Made by a program: the position numbers and the translations under genes
The notes under the pieces: model-generated
What the model saw: only the letters and a program-made list of their open reading frames with translations
What the model was told of the DNA's origin: nothing
Databases searched by the model: none
Shown: positions 4,723 to 13,497 of the stretch, piece by piece
Layout: every line of letters begins with the position of its first letter
How positions within the stretch are numbered: the first letter of the stretch is position 1
Virus record (IMG/VR): IMGVR_UViG_3300030329_002667
Span: 1 to 23,166 of that record
Source of the DNA: a virus
Reading direction: 5' to 3' (one strand)
DNA: 23,166 bases

Positions 4723-5630
4723 GTGACTGGTTCAAATATTACCGCAGCAGCTCAGACCATCATCTGCGCAAAAAACCAACCGTATGGCTCTACTGGCTGC
4801 ACTGTTTAGAGTCCGTATCCTGGAAGGATCACACCGTGTTTTGGGATGGAAAAGAGGTGCATTTAAAGCCCGGATCTTTCATCACTTCCATACCCCGAGA
4901 TCAGCTAAAAAACAGTTTCTCATCACAGCAGGTAAGATGGGCCAGGAAGGTACTGCAGCGCTGCAGCATGATAACAGTCAAAACATCCAACGCCGGATCT
5001 CTCATAACCGTCTGCAATTGGCGCAAACACCAGGCGCAAACAGAACGCGCAACGCGGTCCAAAGAACAGGCTAATGACAGCCCAGTAGCAGACGAACAGC
5101 AGATGCGTGACAGGAAAACAGCAATAACAGAAGAAGGTAAGAAGGTAAAGAAGGGAAGAACAAAGAAAATAACTACTGCCGCGCCGGAATATTCCGAGGC
5201 GTTTGAAAAGTTCTGGAAGGTCTATCCGAAACACGAGGATAAAGCCGAGGCGTTTCAGCTTTACCAGGAAATCATTGACCAGGCTCTGGAGGATGATGCC
5301 GAGAAGAAACTGCTCAAGTTCGCATTCGCCTATGCTTCTGAATTCAGCCGCGGAAGGAAACGATTTGCCAAGAAAGCAAAATACATCCTCCGGGATGCTG
5401 AGTGGTATACCTGGATGGATGAAAACCATTTTGAATATCACATGGCAAACGAACCGAGGGAAGAACCCAAGCCAGCGCCCACTGGCATTTCCTCCCTCAG
5501 TGCCTACACCATGGCTGCCAAAACAGAATGCCCAGGCATTGATCCTAAAGCCATCCGTGCAGCATTTGATTCCGGTCTGCACATCAAACAGCTCATCCAA
5601 CAACATCAAACCGAAACCACGCATGATTGA
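4719..5630 (+). CDS. Replisome-organizer-like phage replication protein
   Basis: A 303-residue protein. Residues 1-105 look like the winged-helix N-terminal domain of phage replisome organizers/DnaD-like initiators: W-F-K-Y-Y-R at 4-9, L-K-P-G-S-F-I-T-S at 49-57, a helix-turn-helix around 60-85, and S-L-I-T-V-C-N-W-R-K (94-103) as the wing. A charged, Lys/Arg-rich linker follows (105-155), then a second helical domain with F-W-K-V-Y-P-K-H and K-Y-I-L-R-D-A-E-W, a pairing common in phage replication proteins that recruit the host helicase or its loader. The start at ATG 4719 (GGGGAG at 4703-4708; ATGA overlap) is preferred over 4701. No helicase, primase or polymerase gene lies in the window, so the phage probably relies on host replication or carries these elsewhere. 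Origin binding is inferred. Confidence 0.7.
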   Translation: MSDWFKYYRSSSDHHLRKKPTVWLYWLHCLESVSWKDHTVFWDGKEVHLKPGSFITSIPRDQLKNSFSSQQVRWARKVLQRCSMITVKTSNAGSLITVCNWRKHQAQTERATRSKEQANDSPVADEQQMRDRKTAITEEGKKVKKGRTKKITTAAPEYSEAFEKFWKVYPKHEDKAEAFQLYQEIIDQALEDDAEKKLLKFAFAYASEFSRGRKRFAKKAKYILRDAEWYTWMDENHFEYHMANEPREEPKPAPTGISSLSAYTMAAKTECPGIDPKAIRAAFDSGLHIKQLIQQHQTETTHD

Positions 5631-6143: not shown

Positions 6144-6590
6144 ATGGGCAAGAAGTGGATTCCCACTGAGGAGATCCTCAAAGACATCGAACAGATGGCC
6201 ATGACCGGCCTCGATGAGCAGGACATCGCCTGGAATTTGGGGATCAACCCAAATACGTTTAGCCAGAAAAAGCATGACCATCCTGAGATCGAAGAGAATA
6301 TAACGCGCGGATGTGCGCAAGGGATTCGGCGGGCCACCTCTTCCCTCCTGGAACAGGTGGATTCCGGCCACCTTGAGGCAACCAAGTTCTTCCTCAAAAA
6401 CCGCCGCCCGGATACCTGGAACAATGACATCCAACACCAGGCCAACATCCAAATCAACCTCAGTCGTTTGAACGATTCGCAGCTGCTCGATGAGCTACGC
6501 GGAGATCCCACGCTGCTGAATGCCGTCAGTGGGCAAATACCGCAGGCAAAGCAGCTAGAAGACTCACCCGATACTCACCCATCAGCATAA
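6144..6590 (+). CDS. terS: Terminase small subunit
   Basis: A 148-residue protein from ATG 6144 (157 if started at ATG 6117; neither has a strong ribosome site, and 6144 directly follows the upstream stop). It has the layout of phage small terminases: an N-terminal helix-turn-helix (L-D-E-Q-D-I-A-W-N-L-G-I-N-P-N-T-F, about 23-39), a central helical region with the A-T-S-S-L-L-E-Q pattern, and the K-F-F-L-K-N-R-R-P-D-T-W motif (about 81-92) typical of the family just before the oligomer-forming end. It recognises phage DNA and hands it to the large subunit, encoded three genes downstream. Stop and next start overlap as TAATG. Confidence 0.78.
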   Translation: MGKKWIPTEEILKDIEQMAMTGLDEQDIAWNLGINPNTFSQKKHDHPEIEENITRGCAQGIRRATSSLLEQVDSGHLEATKFFLKNRRPDTWNNDIQHQANIQINLSRLNDSQLLDELRGDPTLLNAVSGQIPQAKQLEDSPDTHPSA

Positions 6591-7300
6591 TGGCTGGAAT
6601 TAATCCAATGATTTCAGATACTTCACAGCACGCGCTCCGGTTTGCACAACCGTTGCGCCCGGAGACTGAGCAATTGGAAGGGGTTGACCTAGTGTCGGCA
6701 AAACACGGTACAAGATCACGGTATATTTCTGATCGATCCTCGCAAAGCGTTGCAAATACTGCCGATGTGACTGAGTCTAGATCGGACACAACGGAAAATA
6801 TACCGGTATTGCTGCGAAACCCGGAACCTGATGATGCGGCACTCGGATTGGTCCTGGACAGCTGGACCAGGGCCGTAGCTGATCACTCTCCCTGGGCTAC
6901 CTATCTTAGATCTGATATATCAGTTAAAGTTGAGGAAAAGGGAACCGGACGCCAGGCCACCCGGCAGGGGGGTACCACCGCGCCGATACCCCGCCCCATC
7001 CTCCTTCACCACCACGACATACTCCTCAAAAGCCTAATCCCCCATTCCGACATAGCGTTAGCCTGTGACCCATCGGACCCGGACACGGTTTGGGGCTGGA
7101 GCTGCAGCGAGGTGGATTGTCTGCATTTTTTGTATGTCAAGAATGCCTTCCGCGGTTTTGGAATAGGGCGTTTGTTGCTGCGGGAAACTGGGCTGTGGGG
7201 GGATGAGATACGGATATCACACCGGACACCGGCCTTGTATAGCCATTGGCCAGATGTCCATTTTTTATGGAACCCTTATCGGATGATGAAATGGAATTAA
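6590..7300 (+). CDS. GNAT-like N-acetyltransferase between terminase genes
   Basis: A 236-residue protein. The core (about 71-236) fits a GNAT fold: the P-V-L-L-R-N-P-E-P-D-D start strand and helix (72-82), a D-S-W-T-R helix, the strand I-A-L-A-C-D-P-S-D-P-D (155-165), L-H-F-L-Y-V (178-183), and the acetyl-CoA pyrophosphate loop R-G-F-G-I-G (188-193) leading into the L-L-L-R helix. Acetyltransferase-like proteins of this type occur beside terminase genes in other phages; the substrate is unknown. The first 70 residues are polar, low-complexity and rich in Ser, Thr and Arg, unlike the core, and the segment 105-135 is also disordered-looking, so the true start may be internal or the gene may carry an added N-terminus. 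Family call fairly good; role unknown. Confidence 0.7.
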   Translation: MAGINPMISDTSQHALRFAQPLRPETEQLEGVDLVSAKHGTRSRYISDRSSQSVANTADVTESRSDTTENIPVLLRNPEPDDAALGLVLDSWTRAVADHSPWATYLRSDISVKVEEKGTGRQATRQGGTTAPIPRPILLHHHDILLKSLIPHSDIALACDPSDPDTVWGWSCSEVDCLHFLYVKNAFRGFGIGRLLLRETGLWGDEIRISHRTPALYSHWPDVHFLWNPYRMMKWN

Positions 7301-7623
7301 AACAGGTCCATCTGATGCGTGTCTTGCAGATGCCAGGCGGCACGACGGAGTTACTTCAGGCTGGAGAGAAGAATGGAACGGTGACCAAGTTAAACTGGGA
7401 GGAGGATATGATCCAGGTGGTCCGGAATGTTGAGGGGGTAGTGTACACGCGGTATATCCCATTGACGGCAGTTCAGTTTTTGGAAACTTTTGAGGATTCA
7501 AAGGTGGTAGAAGATGGCAGGAAGTCCCAAAAAGCGGGCGCGGCGGGAAGCAGCAAACGATCTGCAGTGGAGCAGGGAGCAAAGGCTTCTAGTCGAGGAG
7601 GCAATAAGAAGAAAGCGGGCTAG
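7291..7623 (+). CDS. Small phage protein preceding the large terminase
   Basis: A 110-residue protein from ATG 7291, chosen because the segment from M-E-L-K-Q-V-H-L on looks protein-like and resembles small conserved phage proteins in this position; ATG 7267 is an in-frame alternative. The first 75 residues form a compact beta-rich unit (M-P-G-G-T-T-E-L-L, then L-N-W-E-E-D-M-I-Q-V-V-R, then Y-T-R-Y-I-P-L-T-A-V). The last 35 are a Lys/Ser/Ala/Gly-rich basic tail that overlaps the start of the large terminase gene by 110 bases in another frame. It overlaps the acetyltransferase gene by 10 bases. No function is known. Confidence 0.65.
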   Translation: MELKQVHLMRVLQMPGGTTELLQAGEKNGTVTKLNWEEDMIQVVRNVEGVVYTRYIPLTAVQFLETFEDSKVVEDGRKSQKAGAAGSSKRSAVEQGAKASSRGGNKKKAG

Positions 7624-9043
7624 GGATCAGGTCCGGGCGAAGCTTGCAGGATTGGGTGAGGCGTTAGTGGAATCACTCCATGAGAAGCAGCGGGAATTCT
7701 TTTTAGCAGATTATCACAAGAAGCTGGCGCGGTGTAGCCGGCGTGCAGGGAAGACGCATTTGGCGGCAGTGGGATTGATCACGGCAGCCGTGGGAATGGA
7801 TAATTTGCTGGTGCCTTACATCACATTGAGCATTAAGAATGCGAGAAGGATTGTATGGAACACGTTGAGGGATTTGGAACGTGGCTGGGGATTTGGGATG
7901 GAGTTTTTGGAGAACCAGCTGACGGTGCGATTTCCGAATGGGAGTCAGATCATCATGGGCGGATGTCAGGATGAGTCTGAAATTGAGAAGTTCCGGGGTC
8001 CGCGTTACAAGCTTTGTGTAATTGATGAATGCCAATCGATAAAGAGCAGAACCTTGGAGAATTTAGTGGAAGATATCTTGGAGCCGGCGTGTTTGGATCT
8101 GGATGGCAGCATCTGGATGTTCGGCACACCAAGCGCGGCGGCTGCAGGATATTTTTACGACATGGATCAGTTGGAGCGATCCCCTTGGCAGAAGCATTTC
8201 TGGACCCTTTTAGAAAATCCGCATCTTCCGGGTGCAGCTGCATGGCTGGAGAGGAAGAAGGAGGAAGCAGGATGGGATGAGGGGGATGCAACGTTCCGGC
8301 GGGAATATGAGGGACAGTGGGTGCGTGATGAAAACTCATTGGTTTATGCATTTAACAAAAAAAGGAACTGTGCAGCGGAGCTGCCGGAAGTCGAGTGGAA
8401 TTATGCACTTGGGGTGGATTTGGGTTTCATTGACAGCACCGCGTTTGTGGTCATCTGCTGGAGTGAGGAAATTCCGGAAACGTATGTGGTGGAGACTCAA
8501 AAATACACCGGGTTCACTGCAGAGGATATTGCAAAAAAAATTCAGTATCTGGATGCAACGTATCAGTTCACAAGGATTGTTGCCGACACTGGCGGTTTGG
8601 GGAAGATGGTGGTGGAGGAGATGTCGAAACGATATTCACTGGATATTCTCCCGGCGCAAAAAAGACAAAAACATGACCACATCGAACTTCTAAATTCTGA
8701 TCTAAAGAAGGGAAAAGTCCTGATTGCTGATGTACCAGAAAACCAGGATCTGATTGATGAGCTGGAACTCTTGGAGTGGGATATGACCGAGATGCTGAAA
8801 GGGCGGTATATTGAGAAGGCAGATTGTGAGAACCACGCGGCAGATGCACTGTTGTATGTATGGCGGGAATCATTGGCGTTTTTGCACACACCTCAGACAT
8901 TGATGCCGATGATCGGGACCAGGGAGTGGTTCCGGGCGGAAGAGCAGCGCATGGAAGCTGCTGCTCTGAGCCAAGTGGAGGATGAGGGTTCCCAGTGGTG
9001 GGAAGAAGGCGGATTGGAACCGGTTTATGAACAACTGAACTGA
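7514..9043 (+). CDS. terL: Terminase large subunit
   Basis: A 509-residue packaging motor with both expected domains. ATPase: adaptor region around 55-64, Walker A C-S-R-R-A-G-K-T (74-81), Walker B L-C-V-I-D-E (167-172) with catalytic Glu172, and the coupling motif F-G-T-P (203-206). RNase-H-like nuclease: G-V-D-L-G (300-304) with Asp302, V-A-D-T-G-G (356-361) with Asp358, and N-H-A-A-D-A (440-445) with Asp444. The enzyme drives DNA into the prohead through the portal and cuts the concatemer. ATG 7514 has an AAAGG about ten bases upstream. The first 40 residues are strongly basic. Its small subunit is at 6144 and its portal partner at 11620, with a large unrelated ORF between them. Call is firm. 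Confidence 0.95.
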   Translation: MAGSPKKRARREAANDLQWSREQRLLVEEAIRRKRARDQVRAKLAGLGEALVESLHEKQREFFLADYHKKLARCSRRAGKTHLAAVGLITAAVGMDNLLVPYITLSIKNARRIVWNTLRDLERGWGFGMEFLENQLTVRFPNGSQIIMGGCQDESEIEKFRGPRYKLCVIDECQSIKSRTLENLVEDILEPACLDLDGSIWMFGTPSAAAAGYFYDMDQLERSPWQKHFWTLLENPHLPGAAAWLERKKEEAGWDEGDATFRREYEGQWVRDENSLVYAFNKKRNCAAELPEVEWNYALGVDLGFIDSTAFVVICWSEEIPETYVVETQKYTGFTAEDIAKKIQYLDATYQFTRIVADTGGLGKMVVEEMSKRYSLDILPAQKRQKHDHIELLNSDLKKGKVLIADVPENQDLIDELELLEWDMTEMLKGRYIEKADCENHAADALLYVWRESLAFLHTPQTLMPMIGTREWFRAEEQRMEAAALSQVEDEGSQWWEEGGLEPVYEQLN

Positions 9044-9045
9044 AC

Positions 9046-11493
9046 ATGGCAGAAAATCTAAAAATTTCCGGACCAGGTGGAGTCGAGGCGATCATGCGCC
9101 AGAAGCAGGCGAATGAGATACTGGACAAATCCTCAAAAAGAATGCCGATCCGCAGCGACATGCTCCAGGCGATGGAGCAGCCTGTTTATCAGACACCGGA
9201 AGAAGAAGAAAATGCCCTACGTCAGGCGTTGATGGCTGCATCAGAATATGTTCCTTCAGAATTAAAAACGGCAGGAAAGTATTTAGGTAAAGCAAATCCT
9301 TGGAAAATCATTGCTGAAAGCCTGCTGATTGGGAAACCGGTTGAGGCGGCAACGACATACGAAAAAATCCCGGCCTATGGGGGAGGAACGCGGGCAAGTG
9401 TCCGGAAGAAACTGGTTGAAGCATTCCAGGAAGCAGATCCGGCAGTTCAATCTCTGAGAAAATACTTCACCAAAGAAGAGCTGGAGCTGATGGCACCGGA
9501 AACTGTGGGTAAAATCCAGATGCTTATGCAGGCGCAGCCCATGACGGCAAAGGAAGAACCTGGTGAAGATCCTAGAATCCTGGCAGGCGGCACCGGAATG
9601 CGGTCCCGCGAGCTGGCAGCCATGGCCCAGGCCGGGAAATCCAAAAAAGGATGGTACCGTGCCAGTGGAAATGCCCTGGATCAGGTCTTTGAATCTGATA
9701 GTCCACGGTTTACAGCACTGCTTGCAGCACTTTCCCCGCAAACCAGTGTCGAATCAAACCTGGAAAACGCGCTGAATGTATGGAAGGGATGGGTAGAAGC
9801 CGGCAGGCCGACTGATGAAGCAGAAATATTGAAGGTGATGGGGGATGCCATCCAAAAATCACCGATTGAGCGGCGTAACCGGGAGCAGCTGGAGCAGCTG
9901 TCGAAGGATCTTGGCCTTGGAGAGGATGGATCGAAGGAAGAATTGATTGAAAAAATTAAAATATTCCAGGCAGAGTCTCCACAGAATGCAAACCAGGTGA
10001 ATTTAAAGTCTGTATTGGGCGCATGGCGTCCGAATTCGATCCGCGCACTGACCACGCCGGAAGGAGAACCCATCCGGCTGTCCGGTGCAAAGGTTCAAAG
10101 CTTCAATTTGAACATCCAGGGCAACAAGGATGAAGTAACCAACGACACCTGGGAAGGGAAAGCCGTTGGGGTTCTTCAAAAAGTCTTTTCCGGTGCCAGA
10201 AGGAAATTTGACACGGCCCTTGGCAGGGAGGAATTAGGCTATAAATCCCCAGGATACCTGGCCAGCAGCGCATTGCATCGGAAAGCCGCAGATATTTTGA
10301 AAAAAGCCACAGGGCGGGATTGGTCTGCGCGGGAAATCCAGGAAACGGTGTGGAGTTTTACCAAAGCAGTGATGGAGCAACGTGGTGAAGCAGGCGAAAC
10401 CCGGACCATCCCGGAGATTATTTCCGACACTGAGGCGATTGATAAACGTATTGCAGAAGTTCCCGACTTTGCTACACTTTTAGGCACTGGTAGATATGCA
10501 CAAATTTTAACAGAGGCAGGCTATGGCGAAAGACTCCCAGAACTCGCAAACATCCAGGGGTTTGGATCAGAAGACCCAGGAAGCGATCCAGGTTCTTACG
10601 GTGAACAAATTATTGGAACCGTTGGCAAACGACTTGAGGAGCAATTTAGAGGGGATGCCGTCCCAAGAGTCTTCAGCAACATCCGGAAAAAGCTCAGACC
10701 CGCTGAAACAGGAGTTAGTGGCAGGGGGGCTTTCACCAGAGGAAGCGGAAGAGCTGCTGCAAATCAGTTAGATTCATTTTCCCTACCTAAAGAAACCGTT
10801 TCGGAGCTGAAATCCCTTGGGATCAATGCTCCTGAAACGATTGTCCAGTTAAAACCCAACAAAAACGGCGTAGCCAGCTTCACCAAGGCCATTACTGAAG
10901 CGGCCAATTCCACAAAATTTGGAAAATCGGTTTATGTTTACTCTCCGGAGGAATATGAACAGATGAAGCTGTTTGTTACCCCAGATAAAAAAGCCGGATT
11001 TGCCATCAAGGATGATGGTGACATTGTCAGTGTCTTCAACCACAAAAAATCTAAATATCGCGGCGTAGGTCCGGTGATGATGCTCCTTGCGGTCCAGGAA
11101 GGCGGCAGGAAACTGGATGCATTTGACACTCAGCTACCGCATATCTATTCAAAAGTAGGTTTTAAAGTCGCAGCAAGACTTCCATGGTCTGATGAGGAAG
11201 CACCTCCCGGATGGAGCAAGGAAGATTTTAAACGGTTCAACAATGGGGAACCGGATGTGGTCTTTATGTACTATGAACCTGACCTACGGAAAACCGAAGT
11301 GCTGACTTTTGGGGCGCGTCAGTATGATCCCAATGATGAAAAGAGGAATGCCACACTTTTCACTGATTATATGGAAGCCGTGGCAGAGCAGATTAACAAA
11401 GTAGAAGGACAAAATGCTGAAGTGGAAGAAGTCACCGAAGACATCGAACTTGACCCAGGAGAAATCCTTGAGTCTAGTGAAGTTCCTCAGTGA
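9046..11493 (+). CDS. Large polyvalent-type phage protein with GNAT-like C-terminus
   Basis: An 815-residue soluble protein, two bases after the terminase stop, with no signal peptide or membrane segment. Residues 1-180 are helical and Glu/Lys-rich. A conserved-looking domain follows at about 200-480, with W-Y-R-A-S (203-207), L-L-A-A-L-S-P-Q-T-S-V-E (225-236) and G-R-P-T-D (253-257); such a domain is seen in large phage proteins, but I do not know its activity. The linker at 490-575 is Gly/Arg-rich and is overprinted by a second ORF. The C-terminal domain (about 605-745) has G-F-A-I-K-D-D-G-D-I-V-S-V-F (651-664), R-G-V-G-P-V-M-M-L-L-A-V (672-683) and I-Y-S-K-V-G-F (700-706), consistent with an acetyltransferase fold. 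Multi-domain proteins like this may be injected with the DNA; here that is inference. An acidic tail ends the protein. Confidence 0.6.
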   Translation: MAENLKISGPGGVEAIMRQKQANEILDKSSKRMPIRSDMLQAMEQPVYQTPEEEENALRQALMAASEYVPSELKTAGKYLGKANPWKIIAESLLIGKPVEAATTYEKIPAYGGGTRASVRKKLVEAFQEADPAVQSLRKYFTKEELELMAPETVGKIQMLMQAQPMTAKEEPGEDPRILAGGTGMRSRELAAMAQAGKSKKGWYRASGNALDQVFESDSPRFTALLAALSPQTSVESNLENALNVWKGWVEAGRPTDEAEILKVMGDAIQKSPIERRNREQLEQLSKDLGLGEDGSKEELIEKIKIFQAESPQNANQVNLKSVLGAWRPNSIRALTTPEGEPIRLSGAKVQSFNLNIQGNKDEVTNDTWEGKAVGVLQKVFSGARRKFDTALGREELGYKSPGYLASSALHRKAADILKKATGRDWSAREIQETVWSFTKAVMEQRGEAGETRTIPEIISDTEAIDKRIAEVPDFATLLGTGRYAQILTEAGYGERLPELANIQGFGSEDPGSDPGSYGEQIIGTVGKRLEEQFRGDAVPRVFSNIRKKLRPAETGVSGRGAFTRGSGRAAANQLDSFSLPKETVSELKSLGINAPETIVQLKPNKNGVASFTKAITEAANSTKFGKSVYVYSPEEYEQMKLFVTPDKKAGFAIKDDGDIVSVFNHKKSKYRGVGPVMMLLAVQEGGRKLDAFDTQLPHIYSKVGFKVAARLPWSDEEAPPGWSKEDFKRFNNGEPDVVFMYYEPDLRKTEVLTFGARQYDPNDEKRNATLFTDYMEAVAEQINKVEGQNAEVEEVTEDIELDPGEILESSEVPQ
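10523..10771 (+). CDS. Nested 82-residue ORF inside the large polyvalent gene
   Basis: This ORF lies wholly inside the 815-codon gene in the +1-shifted frame. Its ATG follows AGAGG by about six bases, after an in-frame stop at 10508-10510. Its codons (CAG, CTG, TTG, GCG, CCG, GAA) match the rest of the phage, and its protein reads like a normal soluble helical protein: a polar N-terminus, a helix with Q-E-A-I-Q-V-L and L-L-E-P-L-A-N-D-L, a Ser-rich linker, and a C-terminal helix pair L-S-P-E-E-A-E-E-L-L. In contrast, the host frame over the same span is Gly/Arg-rich and irregular. No family is recognised. It could be a true overlapping gene, or a separate gene now spanned by a fused frame. 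Confidence 0.5.
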   Translation: MAKDSQNSQTSRGLDQKTQEAIQVLTVNKLLEPLANDLRSNLEGMPSQESSATSGKSSDPLKQELVAGGLSPEEAEELLQIS

Positions 11494-11620
11494 AAACCGG
11501 GTGGCAGAATTTGAAGGGCATGGTTTGAAAGTAAAATTTTACCAGGAAATCCCGGAACTGAAATTACCGGAACTTCCACCAGATAATAGTTTAATCCGAG
11601 AATACCAGATGGAGTCATAA
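11468..11620 (+). CDS. Small hypothetical protein before the portal
   Basis: A 50-residue protein. The frame is open back to ATG 11414, but AGGAGA at 11457-11462 sits five bases before TTG 11468, which gives a tidy N-terminus (M-S-L-V-K-F-L) and a 26-base overlap with the preceding gene. The sequence alternates beta strands (V-A-E-F-E-G-H-G-L-K-V-K-F) and a Pro/Leu-rich tail, like small accessory proteins often found just before phage portal genes. Its stop overlaps the portal ATG as TAATG, so the two are coupled. Function unknown. Confidence 0.6.
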   Translation: MSLVKFLSENRVAEFEGHGLKVKFYQEIPELKLPELPPDNSLIREYQMES

Positions 11621-13497
11621 TGGCATTTTGGTGGCAAGCAGAAACGGAGGAAGAACTGGGAAACCGGTTGACTGAAACCGTAAACCAGCTCAAAGAGGAT
11701 CACCTGGGGCGGATGCAGCTGAACATCGACATGCTGCGGATGTACACCCAGCGGAATTATGAGGCACTGGACCGGTTTGAACCATCGATGCGGATCGGAC
11801 TGCCAATGGCGGAAGATTTTAGGATGCGTCTGAATGTGGTAGGAAACATAACGGACACACTTGTCAGCCGCCTTGGCAAATCTCGGCCCCGCCCCATGTA
11901 TCTGACCAAGCGCGGAGACTACCGGCTGCGGACCAGGGCGAAGAAGCTCACCGATGCAATGGAAGGAATCTTCCACCAGGTGGGCATGTATGATCTGATG
12001 CCGAAGATTTTCCAGGATGCCTGCATCTTTGATTTGGCAGCAATGAAAGTGGGCCGTGATGGAAATGATATTTTTGCAGAAAGGGTCTTTCCCAATGAGC
12101 TGCTGTGGGATTTGAATGCAGCCATGTATTCCGAGGTTCCACCGTCTTTACACCAGACCAAAAAGGTTCCCCTGGAGCAGATGATTCTCAATTTCCCGGA
12201 GCATAAAGATCAAATCATGTACTACTCTGCTGCATCGGACAGTGATTATTTCGGTGAGGAGGGGCATGATGCGGAAATGGTAGAATGTGTCGAGTCATGG
12301 CATCTTCCTTCCATCAATGGCGCAGATGACGGCAGGCACGCGATCACCATGGATAACCTGGTGCTGGTGGATGAGCAGTATAACTATCCGAATTATCCGT
12401 TTGTCACCATGACCTGGGGGGATTCAGTCCTCGGATGGTCCGGAATCTCCCTGGTGGAATCCCTAAAATCGATCCAGTTTGAAATCAATAAACTGGCACT
12501 CAGAATTCAGCAGGCCATGCACCTGGTCAGTGTGCCGTGGATCTTTGTGGCCCACGGCAGCCGCGTGGTGGAATCCAGTTTGAGGAATGCACCCGGCACC
12601 GTGGTCAATTATGTAGGTCAGCCGCCGGTCAGCTACACGCCCACCGCGATGTCATCGGAAGTCTATGCCCACCTGGACCGGCTTTATCAACGTGCCTATG
12701 AAATTGCAGGCGTTTCCGAGCTTTCCGCAACCGGAAGAAAACCCTCCGGGCTGGACAGCGGTGCTGCATTAAGAACGTATCACGATATTGAAACCGAGCG
12801 TTTCATTACGGTGGGTCAGAAATATGAAAAAGCATACATGGATGCAGCCGTGTGGTTCCAGGATCTGGCCCGCGAGATTGTGAAGGATTCCGGATCATTT
12901 CCGGTCAAAGGATTCAAAAGACGCGCCCTAGAAGAGCTGGATTTTAAAGACATCGATTTGGCAGAAAAAGATTATGTGCTGCAAGCCTACCCGGTGAGTC
13001 TCCTTCCATCGACACCGGCAGGACGCCTGCAGGCGGTCACCGAGCTGATCCAGAATGGAGTGATCACCCAGAAGGAGCATATTGTCAGGCTGCTCGATTT
13101 CCCGGATCTGGAATCGGTGACATCCCTCTATGATGCCCTGGAAAGGGATGTGGAGTGGAGGATTTCCGAGATCCTGGAGGATGAACGATACCATGCCCCG
13201 GAGCCGGTGATGGATCTCGCGTTTGCCAAGGAACGGATGACCATCGCGTACCTGGAAGCAGAGCAGGATGGTTTGGAATTAAACAAACTGGATATGATGC
13301 TGCGCTTTATTGATGAGTGTGATGCCCTGATGCAGGAAGGCGCAGCCGGGCCAGAGATTATTACGGAGCAGGCCGCAGCAGCTGGTGGAGAAACCCCACA
13401 GCTGGAAGCCGCATCTCTCCCAGGTATGGAAACCCCAATGACTGAAACAATAACACCGCCGGTAATGCCACCGGCGCCAGAAGGATTGCCAGTATGA
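11620..13497 (+). CDS. Portal protein
   Basis: A 625-residue head-to-tail connector subunit, expected to form the dodecameric ring at the unique vertex through which DNA enters and leaves. Size and layout fit portals of podovirus-like phages: an N-terminal helical part with repeated Arg/Met helices (20-90), a central region with L-V-L-V-D-E-Q-Y-N-Y-P-N-Y-P-F-V (about 250-265) and L-G-W-S-G-I-S-L-V-E-S-L (about 273-284), the stem-to-crown stretch S-E-L-S-A-T-G-R-K-P-S-G (about 367-378), and a C-terminal Pro/Met/Glu-rich tail from about 580. It lies between terminase and scaffold genes as usual, starting at a TAATG overlap and ending with an ATGA overlap on the scaffold gene. Confidence 0.88.
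   Translation: MAFWWQAETEEELGNRLTETVNQLKEDHLGRMQLNIDMLRMYTQRNYEALDRFEPSMRIGLPMAEDFRMRLNVVGNITDTLVSRLGKSRPRPMYLTKRGDYRLRTRAKKLTDAMEGIFHQVGMYDLMPKIFQDACIFDLAAMKVGRDGNDIFAERVFPNELLWDLNAAMYSEVPPSLHQTKKVPLEQMILNFPEHKDQIMYYSAASDSDYFGEEGHDAEMVECVESWHLPSINGADDGRHAITMDNLVLVDEQYNYPNYPFVTMTWGDSVLGWSGISLVESLKSIQFEINKLALRIQQAMHLVSVPWIFVAHGSRVVESSLRNAPGTVVNYVGQPPVSYTPTAMSSEVYAHLDRLYQRAYEIAGVSELSATGRKPSGLDSGAALRTYHDIETERFITVGQKYEKAYMDAAVWFQDLAREIVKDSGSFPVKGFKRRALEELDFKDIDLAEKDYVLQAYPVSLLPSTPAGRLQAVTELIQNGVITQKEHIVRLLDFPDLESVTSLYDALERDVEWRISEILEDERYHAPEPVMDLAFAKERMTIAYLEAEQDGLELNKLDMMLRFIDECDALMQEGAAGPEIITEQAAAAGGETPQLEAASLPGMETPMTETITPPVMPPAPEGLPV

Follow-up and report, generated by a model that had tools for sequence, protein, structure and literature searches.

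A small gene nested out of frame in the gene for a large modular phage protein recurs with the domain DUF7178

An 82-codon open reading frame (ORF) lying wholly inside the gene for a large modular phage protein is, judging by its conservation in relatives, almost certainly a real protein-coding gene. The window examined here, meaning the whole stretch of DNA that was analyzed, is IMG/VR virus record IMGVR_UViG_3300030329_002667 (23,166 bases). The nested gene occupies positions 10523 to 10771 of the plus strand, in frame +1 relative to the outer ORF (positions 9046 to 11493, plus strand; 815 amino acids), within which it is entirely contained. Our main reading, to which we assign a probability of approximately 0.9, is that this stretch is dual coded, with the nested protein made by internal initiation at position 10523 and the two coding sequences inherited as a pair. 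The first reading of the stretch would yield the part of the large protein that lies just after its DUF7178 domain, and the second reading, one base on, would yield a separate small, mostly helical protein. The outer codons for Leu-Thr-Glu-Ala-Gly-Tyr-Gly would provide the Shine-Dalgarno sequence and ATG needed for internal initiation, and the small protein would be made freely alongside the large one. The end of DUF7178 and the nested gene would then form an old pair passed on as one unit.

The outer gene is located between the genes for the terminase large subunit (positions 7514 to 9043) and the portal protein (positions 11620 to 13497), and its 3' end is overlapped by a small gene of 68 amino acids at positions 11414 to 11620; all of these are on the plus strand. 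Full-length relatives of the outer protein exist, and it is conserved through the overlap with the nested gene. Its DUF7178 domain (Pfam PF23802; positions 9601 to 10470) was modeled with a pLDDT of 88 as an HhH-GPD DNA-glycosylase-like domain. The whole protein scored 27.2 bits against the Pfam model (curated cutoff, 27), the domain alone scored 30.5 bits, and a six-frame search gave 18.7, which is below the cutoff. All 35 of the 35 aligned outer domains matched Pfam DUF7178, with E values of up to 1. The C-terminal module (residues 592 to 787; positions 10819 to 11406, plus strand) is GNAT-like, matching PHROG 2563, a family of unknown function, with an E value of 8.9e-14 and, by tblastn, phage proteins of which some are annotated as acetyltransferases; no Pfam GNAT match was found in the outer protein of the window. 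A separate gene of 236 amino acids upstream of the terminase gene (positions 6590 to 7300) has a weak acetyltransferase match (PHROG 3810; E value, 8e-4). Relatives of the outer protein reach approximately 3,500 amino acids, and DUF7178 also occurs in proteins of other architecture. In terminase relatives that lack the outer gene, other large proteins occupy its slot. In L026, L033, L036, L037, L038, L040, L041, L043, L048, and L049, different large proteins of 784 to 1,163 amino acids are found between the terminase gene and the small gene that precedes the portal gene, and this slot (positions 9043 to 11414 in the window) looks like an exchangeable cargo slot. In L026 and L033, part of the slot protein looks by eye like an ADP-ribosyltransferase domain.

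In the window, a TAA stop in the nested frame (positions 10508 to 10510) lies just upstream of the nested start and is followed by AGAGG, a Shine-Dalgarno-like site (positions 10512 to 10516) 6 nucleotides before the ATG, giving the order TAA-c-AGAGG-caggct-ATG. The preliminary description, made from the sequence alone, had reported a well-formed nested ORF with these start features, and they are confirmed here. Near the nested start, the plus strand showed neither a promoter-like nor a terminator-like site. When the outer gene was recoded synonymously, with its amino acids fixed and its own codon use retained, frame +1 stayed open over all 82 codons in 29% of recodings, and in 20% the ATG was also kept; similar spurious ORFs are numerous within the window. 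The open nested frame in the window sequence alone is weak evidence, not beyond chance, and as 29% of recodings leave it open, the argument from the sequence of the window is suggestive but insufficient and conservation must decide. Recoding left frame +1 open in 1.6% of cases for L003 and in 0.7% for L044.

Close relatives that cover the site retain the nested ORF at 43 to 87% amino acid identity. It is intact in L001 to L004, with the same stop and 71 to 87% identity, and is also kept in L068 and L083. In L044, the outer protein of which is 56% identical to that of the window, the nested ORF encodes 82 amino acids at 43% identity (E value, 8e-15). Across the nested ORF, silent divergence of the outer frame was 2- to 5-fold lower, and the boundaries of this drop were sharp. 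Between the window and L001, 4 of 35 outer 4-fold-degenerate sites differed inside the overlap versus 94 of 263 outside it; for the window and L044 the counts were 2 of 14 versus 116 of 157 (P = 1.6e-5), and for three sister pairs pooled they were 10 of 105 versus 200 of 835 (P = 4.5e-4). In sliding windows, the trough in silent divergence starts and stops with the nested ORF, and over the overlap the third position of the outer codons is no longer the fastest changing. The overlap with the next gene (positions 11414 to 11620) served as an internal positive control, and silent divergence was also low there, at positions 11398 to 11508. A narrow dip at approximately positions 9418 to 9492 of the outer gene (9/57) coincides with no known overlapping gene, and a mild dip near positions 10822 to 10968 is without explanation here. 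Alignment of homologs and comparison of silent rates, as the preliminary description had proposed, thus found the nested frame kept and the outer frame silently constrained over it.

A motif from the outer domain, searched against virus contigs, yielded 61 loci. In most of them, frame +1 is open right after the outer motif Ile-Leu-x-x-(Ala/Gly)-Gly-Tyr-Gly and encodes a small protein of similar pattern. From 30 non-redundant examples a held-out test was constructed, in which the sequence under test and those closely related to it were excluded from the nested-frame profile. The true nested frame scored above all 300 synonymous recodings of its own outer codons in 28 of the 30. With fixed 60-codon stretches, the nested frame passed in 22 of 30 (mean z, 6.0), compared with 0 to 3 of 30 for upstream control stretches; the +2 frame of the overlap passed in 8 of 30, which would be unsurprising given the shared bases. 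In the mirror test, in which recoding held the nested protein fixed, the outer frame was conserved in 22 of 28 cases. Taken together, the two tests indicate that neither frame arises merely as a consequence of the other one.

When the scan was repeated with another outer motif, 61 further loci were obtained, with 48 complete sites. The first-round profile identified the nested frame at an E value of <0.01 in 10 of these, and the weaker matches of this sample were also all in frame +1; the lower rate reflects the many lineages there that have no nested gene or a divergent one. The profile was then iterated over all loci and matched 69 DUF7178 sites, 68 of them in frame +1. The single frame-0 match is probably L024, where the outer frame is interrupted shortly before the nested gene (positions 5207 to 5219 of that locus) and the nested frame is intact; the interruption may be genuine or may reflect a sequencing error. 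Iteration can cause a profile to drift, but drift would not confine the matches to one frame at one site. In total, 38 of 55 DUF7178 lineages had the nested protein at this place and in this frame, and on a tree of the outer domain most branches include it, with losses or gains at several points. Its sequence is strongly variable.

No nested gene was detected in the remaining 17 of the 55 lineages, among which L140, L145/L161, and L166 have look-alike ORFs below the threshold. Lineages without the ORF provide a natural negative control for silent constraint. The group comprising L118, L122, L123, L128, L130, L141, L142, L152, and L169, along with others, has kept the outer Gly-Tyr-Gly without the nested ORF, and in that group no silent constraint was found at the nested site. 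Ratios of silent divergence at the site to that in the rest were 0.98, 1.11, and 1.50 in clusters without the nested ORF, compared with 0.13 to 0.82 in clusters with it, some of which were individually significant (P = 2.5e-7, 5.7e-6, and 9e-4) and others not. Homologs with stops in the inner frame, which the preliminary description had named as evidence that would count against a second gene, were confined to a minority of deeper lineages, and these also lacked silent constraint.

Silent constraint by itself does not prove translation, and it could in principle reflect another signal in an untranslated ORF, such as an RNA structure or a regulatory site. We consider this very improbable, since the held-out nested profiles recognize the translation and not its synonymous recodings, and the constraint stops at the nested stop codon and is absent from lineages without the ORF. 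The start region is also less structured than its shuffles (−10.1 kcal/mol versus a shuffle mean of −15.9), and as 199 of 200 shuffles fold at least as well, it is unusually unstructured. By these comparisons of sequences, the second frame is conserved as protein, as is the first, and the start signals go beyond what the outer protein requires. The claim that the linker is overprinted by a true second gene is thus strongly supported, both frames being independently conserved.

How the nested frame would be reached was assessed from its start signals. Across 30 lineages, an ATG was observed near the site in 21, versus 10.6 expected from synonymous recodings, and a start together with a Shine-Dalgarno sequence in 18, versus 7.7 expected. 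Nested-frame stops just upstream were, if anything, commoner than expected (12 versus 6.7). Under a rival explanation, +1 programmed frameshifting near the Gly-Tyr-Gly codons would produce a shorter large protein with an alternative tail and no free small product. The nested frame does lie directly after the DUF7178 domain, and frame +1 is open well upstream in several lineages; some, namely, L066, L067, L079, and L091, have no ATG at the expected place. The upstream stops, however, would leave only a very short stretch in which to shift, no slippery sequence common to the lineages was seen at the site by eye, and the enrichment of start codons, Shine-Dalgarno sequences, and upstream stops favors internal initiation. 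Frameshifting is consequently judged improbable, and a free small protein made by internal initiation is the more likely product given these sequence signals.

The preliminary description had also raised the alternative that three once-separate genes, one upstream, the small gene itself, and a GNAT-like one downstream, had become joined; this could have come about by evolution or through a sequencing frameshift. The large protein is indeed modular, its N terminus, its DUF7178 domain, and its GNAT-like end all being found in other arrangements: the GNAT-like end is also found on other phage proteins, and the N terminus differs between the window and L044. In L098 (positions 1184 to 1471 of that locus), the nested gene continues approximately 90 bases beyond the end of the outer ORF, so that the nesting is partial. 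Against joining, the same uninterrupted outer frame was found in independent contigs, where a sequencing error would not recur; it continued through the overlap in the related proteins examined, with the exception of L024, and it is conserved there independently of the nested frame. A sequencing frameshift is accordingly disfavored, and since the outer frame is continuous and conserved, a joining of three genes is not needed and has very little probability. Of the earlier interpretation, overprinting therefore stands and gene joining is disfavored, and the nested gene is, with high confidence on the evidence of conservation, best viewed as a real, old, and dual-coded gene.

Neither the nested protein nor its alignment gave a credible match in Pfam, PHROG, or PDB sequences. 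A match to DUF4473 (E value, 0.04) was below the cutoff, and the sole tblastn match in cultured phages, to Pectobacterium phage MA13 (E value, 8), was at chance level. The fold model consists of two helices, a flexible stretch, and two short helices and was poor and unfit for a structure search. The DUF7178 motif was absent from the bacterial and archaeal genomes scanned, and a search of plasmids with one query likewise returned none. Among cultured phages, only weak or standalone DUF7178 relatives were identified, and Mycobacterium phage Myrna was a structural match but not a sequence match. The nested profile gave no match in the four longer records of cultured phages that were searched. Within the literature searched, which consisted of open-license papers only, DUF7178 was not mentioned and the nested overlap was not reported.

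As the nested protein was found only with the DUF7178 module, a helper role for that module suggests itself, and it may well act as a small helper or regulator of the protein that carries DUF7178. More specifically, and only tentatively, it may serve the module by binding as an inhibitor or as an assembly chaperone while virions are made. The fact that 17 lineages do without the nested gene speaks against a strict need for it. The absence of the gene from those 17 of 55 DUF7178 lineages and its strong sequence variability would also suit a protein that is real but functionally unrelated to DUF7178, for instance, a general packaging or lysis factor; any interaction between the two proteins is putative. 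Such an unrelated function is a serious possibility, at somewhat less than even odds, against which stands the observation that no nested-profile match was found away from DUF7178 sites among 24,775 ORFs, these being ORFs of loci fetched around DUF7178 or the terminase gene, with whole genomes searched in few cases, which limits the search for free copies.

The DUF7178 model was compared with proteins of known structure, and its likely fold is that of an Ogg-like HhH-GPD DNA glycosylase. In VIA comparisons, Ogg glycosylases were in the top five rows, with Z values of 10.0 to 10.8 over 173 to 183 residues, values that helical models can reach by chance. On this comparison, the predicted fold would resemble that of Ogg-type 8-oxoguanine DNA glycosylases from archaea and thermophiles, namely, MjOgg (3knt/3fhf), TmOgg (3n0u), and SsOgg (3fhg), although the hairpin looks shorter and any such activity is predicted. 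In EndoIII and MjOgg, the catalytic Lys/Asp pair is 18 residues apart. The alignment of outer domains contains the invariant columns K349 (positions 10090 to 10092) and D367 (positions 10144 to 10146), which have the same spacing. Plain Foldseek gave no significant PDB match for the model, and sequence-profile searches of the outer domain against known HhH-GPD families, which remote members can escape, gave no credible match; the glycosylase reading thus rests on the fold. A PDB match of the outer profile to 3wtc, a putative oxidoreductase, looks like chance.

Nested out-of-frame genes are known in phages, examples being lambda Rz1 within Rz and phiX174 E within D. The gene described here resembles these in being a whole gene contained within a second one, read from the same strand in a different frame and with its own start signals. 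It differs in its setting, as those are lysis or structural genes and here the outer gene encodes a large modular protein, and in its recurrence with one domain across divergent lineages; no sequence relation to either system was found. Neither Pfam, in which DUF7178 is a family of unknown function, nor the PHROG library, in which the corresponding family is PHROG 3842, describes the nested gene. Like the large polyvalent proteins of phages and conjugative elements, the outer protein is large and modular and is encoded near the terminase and portal genes. GNATs are among the polyvalent effector domains listed in a paper on these proteins, the main text of which does not contain the word "overlap" (PMC5512222). 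The polyvalent-protein domain LPD38 was identified in two relatives (L097 and L103), but neither an LPD nor any other polyvalent-protein domain was detected in the protein of the window. The large protein may perhaps be a polyvalent-type effector with DNA-glycosylase-like activity.

Phage nested genes have each usually been a local case, and here the same one recurs in 38 divergent lineages. Because its relation to one domain is fixed, dual coding can be tested on a broad natural sample in which lineages without the gene serve as controls, and DUF7178, a domain of unknown function, gains a likely fold from the model. Gene finders usually reject ORFs of this kind and, given the recurrence of this one in uncultured phages that are only distant relatives, have probably missed a real and widespread protein. 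It is conceivable, if doubtful at present, that this is an unnoticed family existing solely as an overprinted gene, which shares its bases with the last part of DUF7178, a glycosylase-like effector domain, and moves with it among modular phage proteins as its built-in inhibitor or chaperone; if so, a weapon and its safety catch would share the same DNA. Hidden partners inside other modular phage proteins would be worth looking for.
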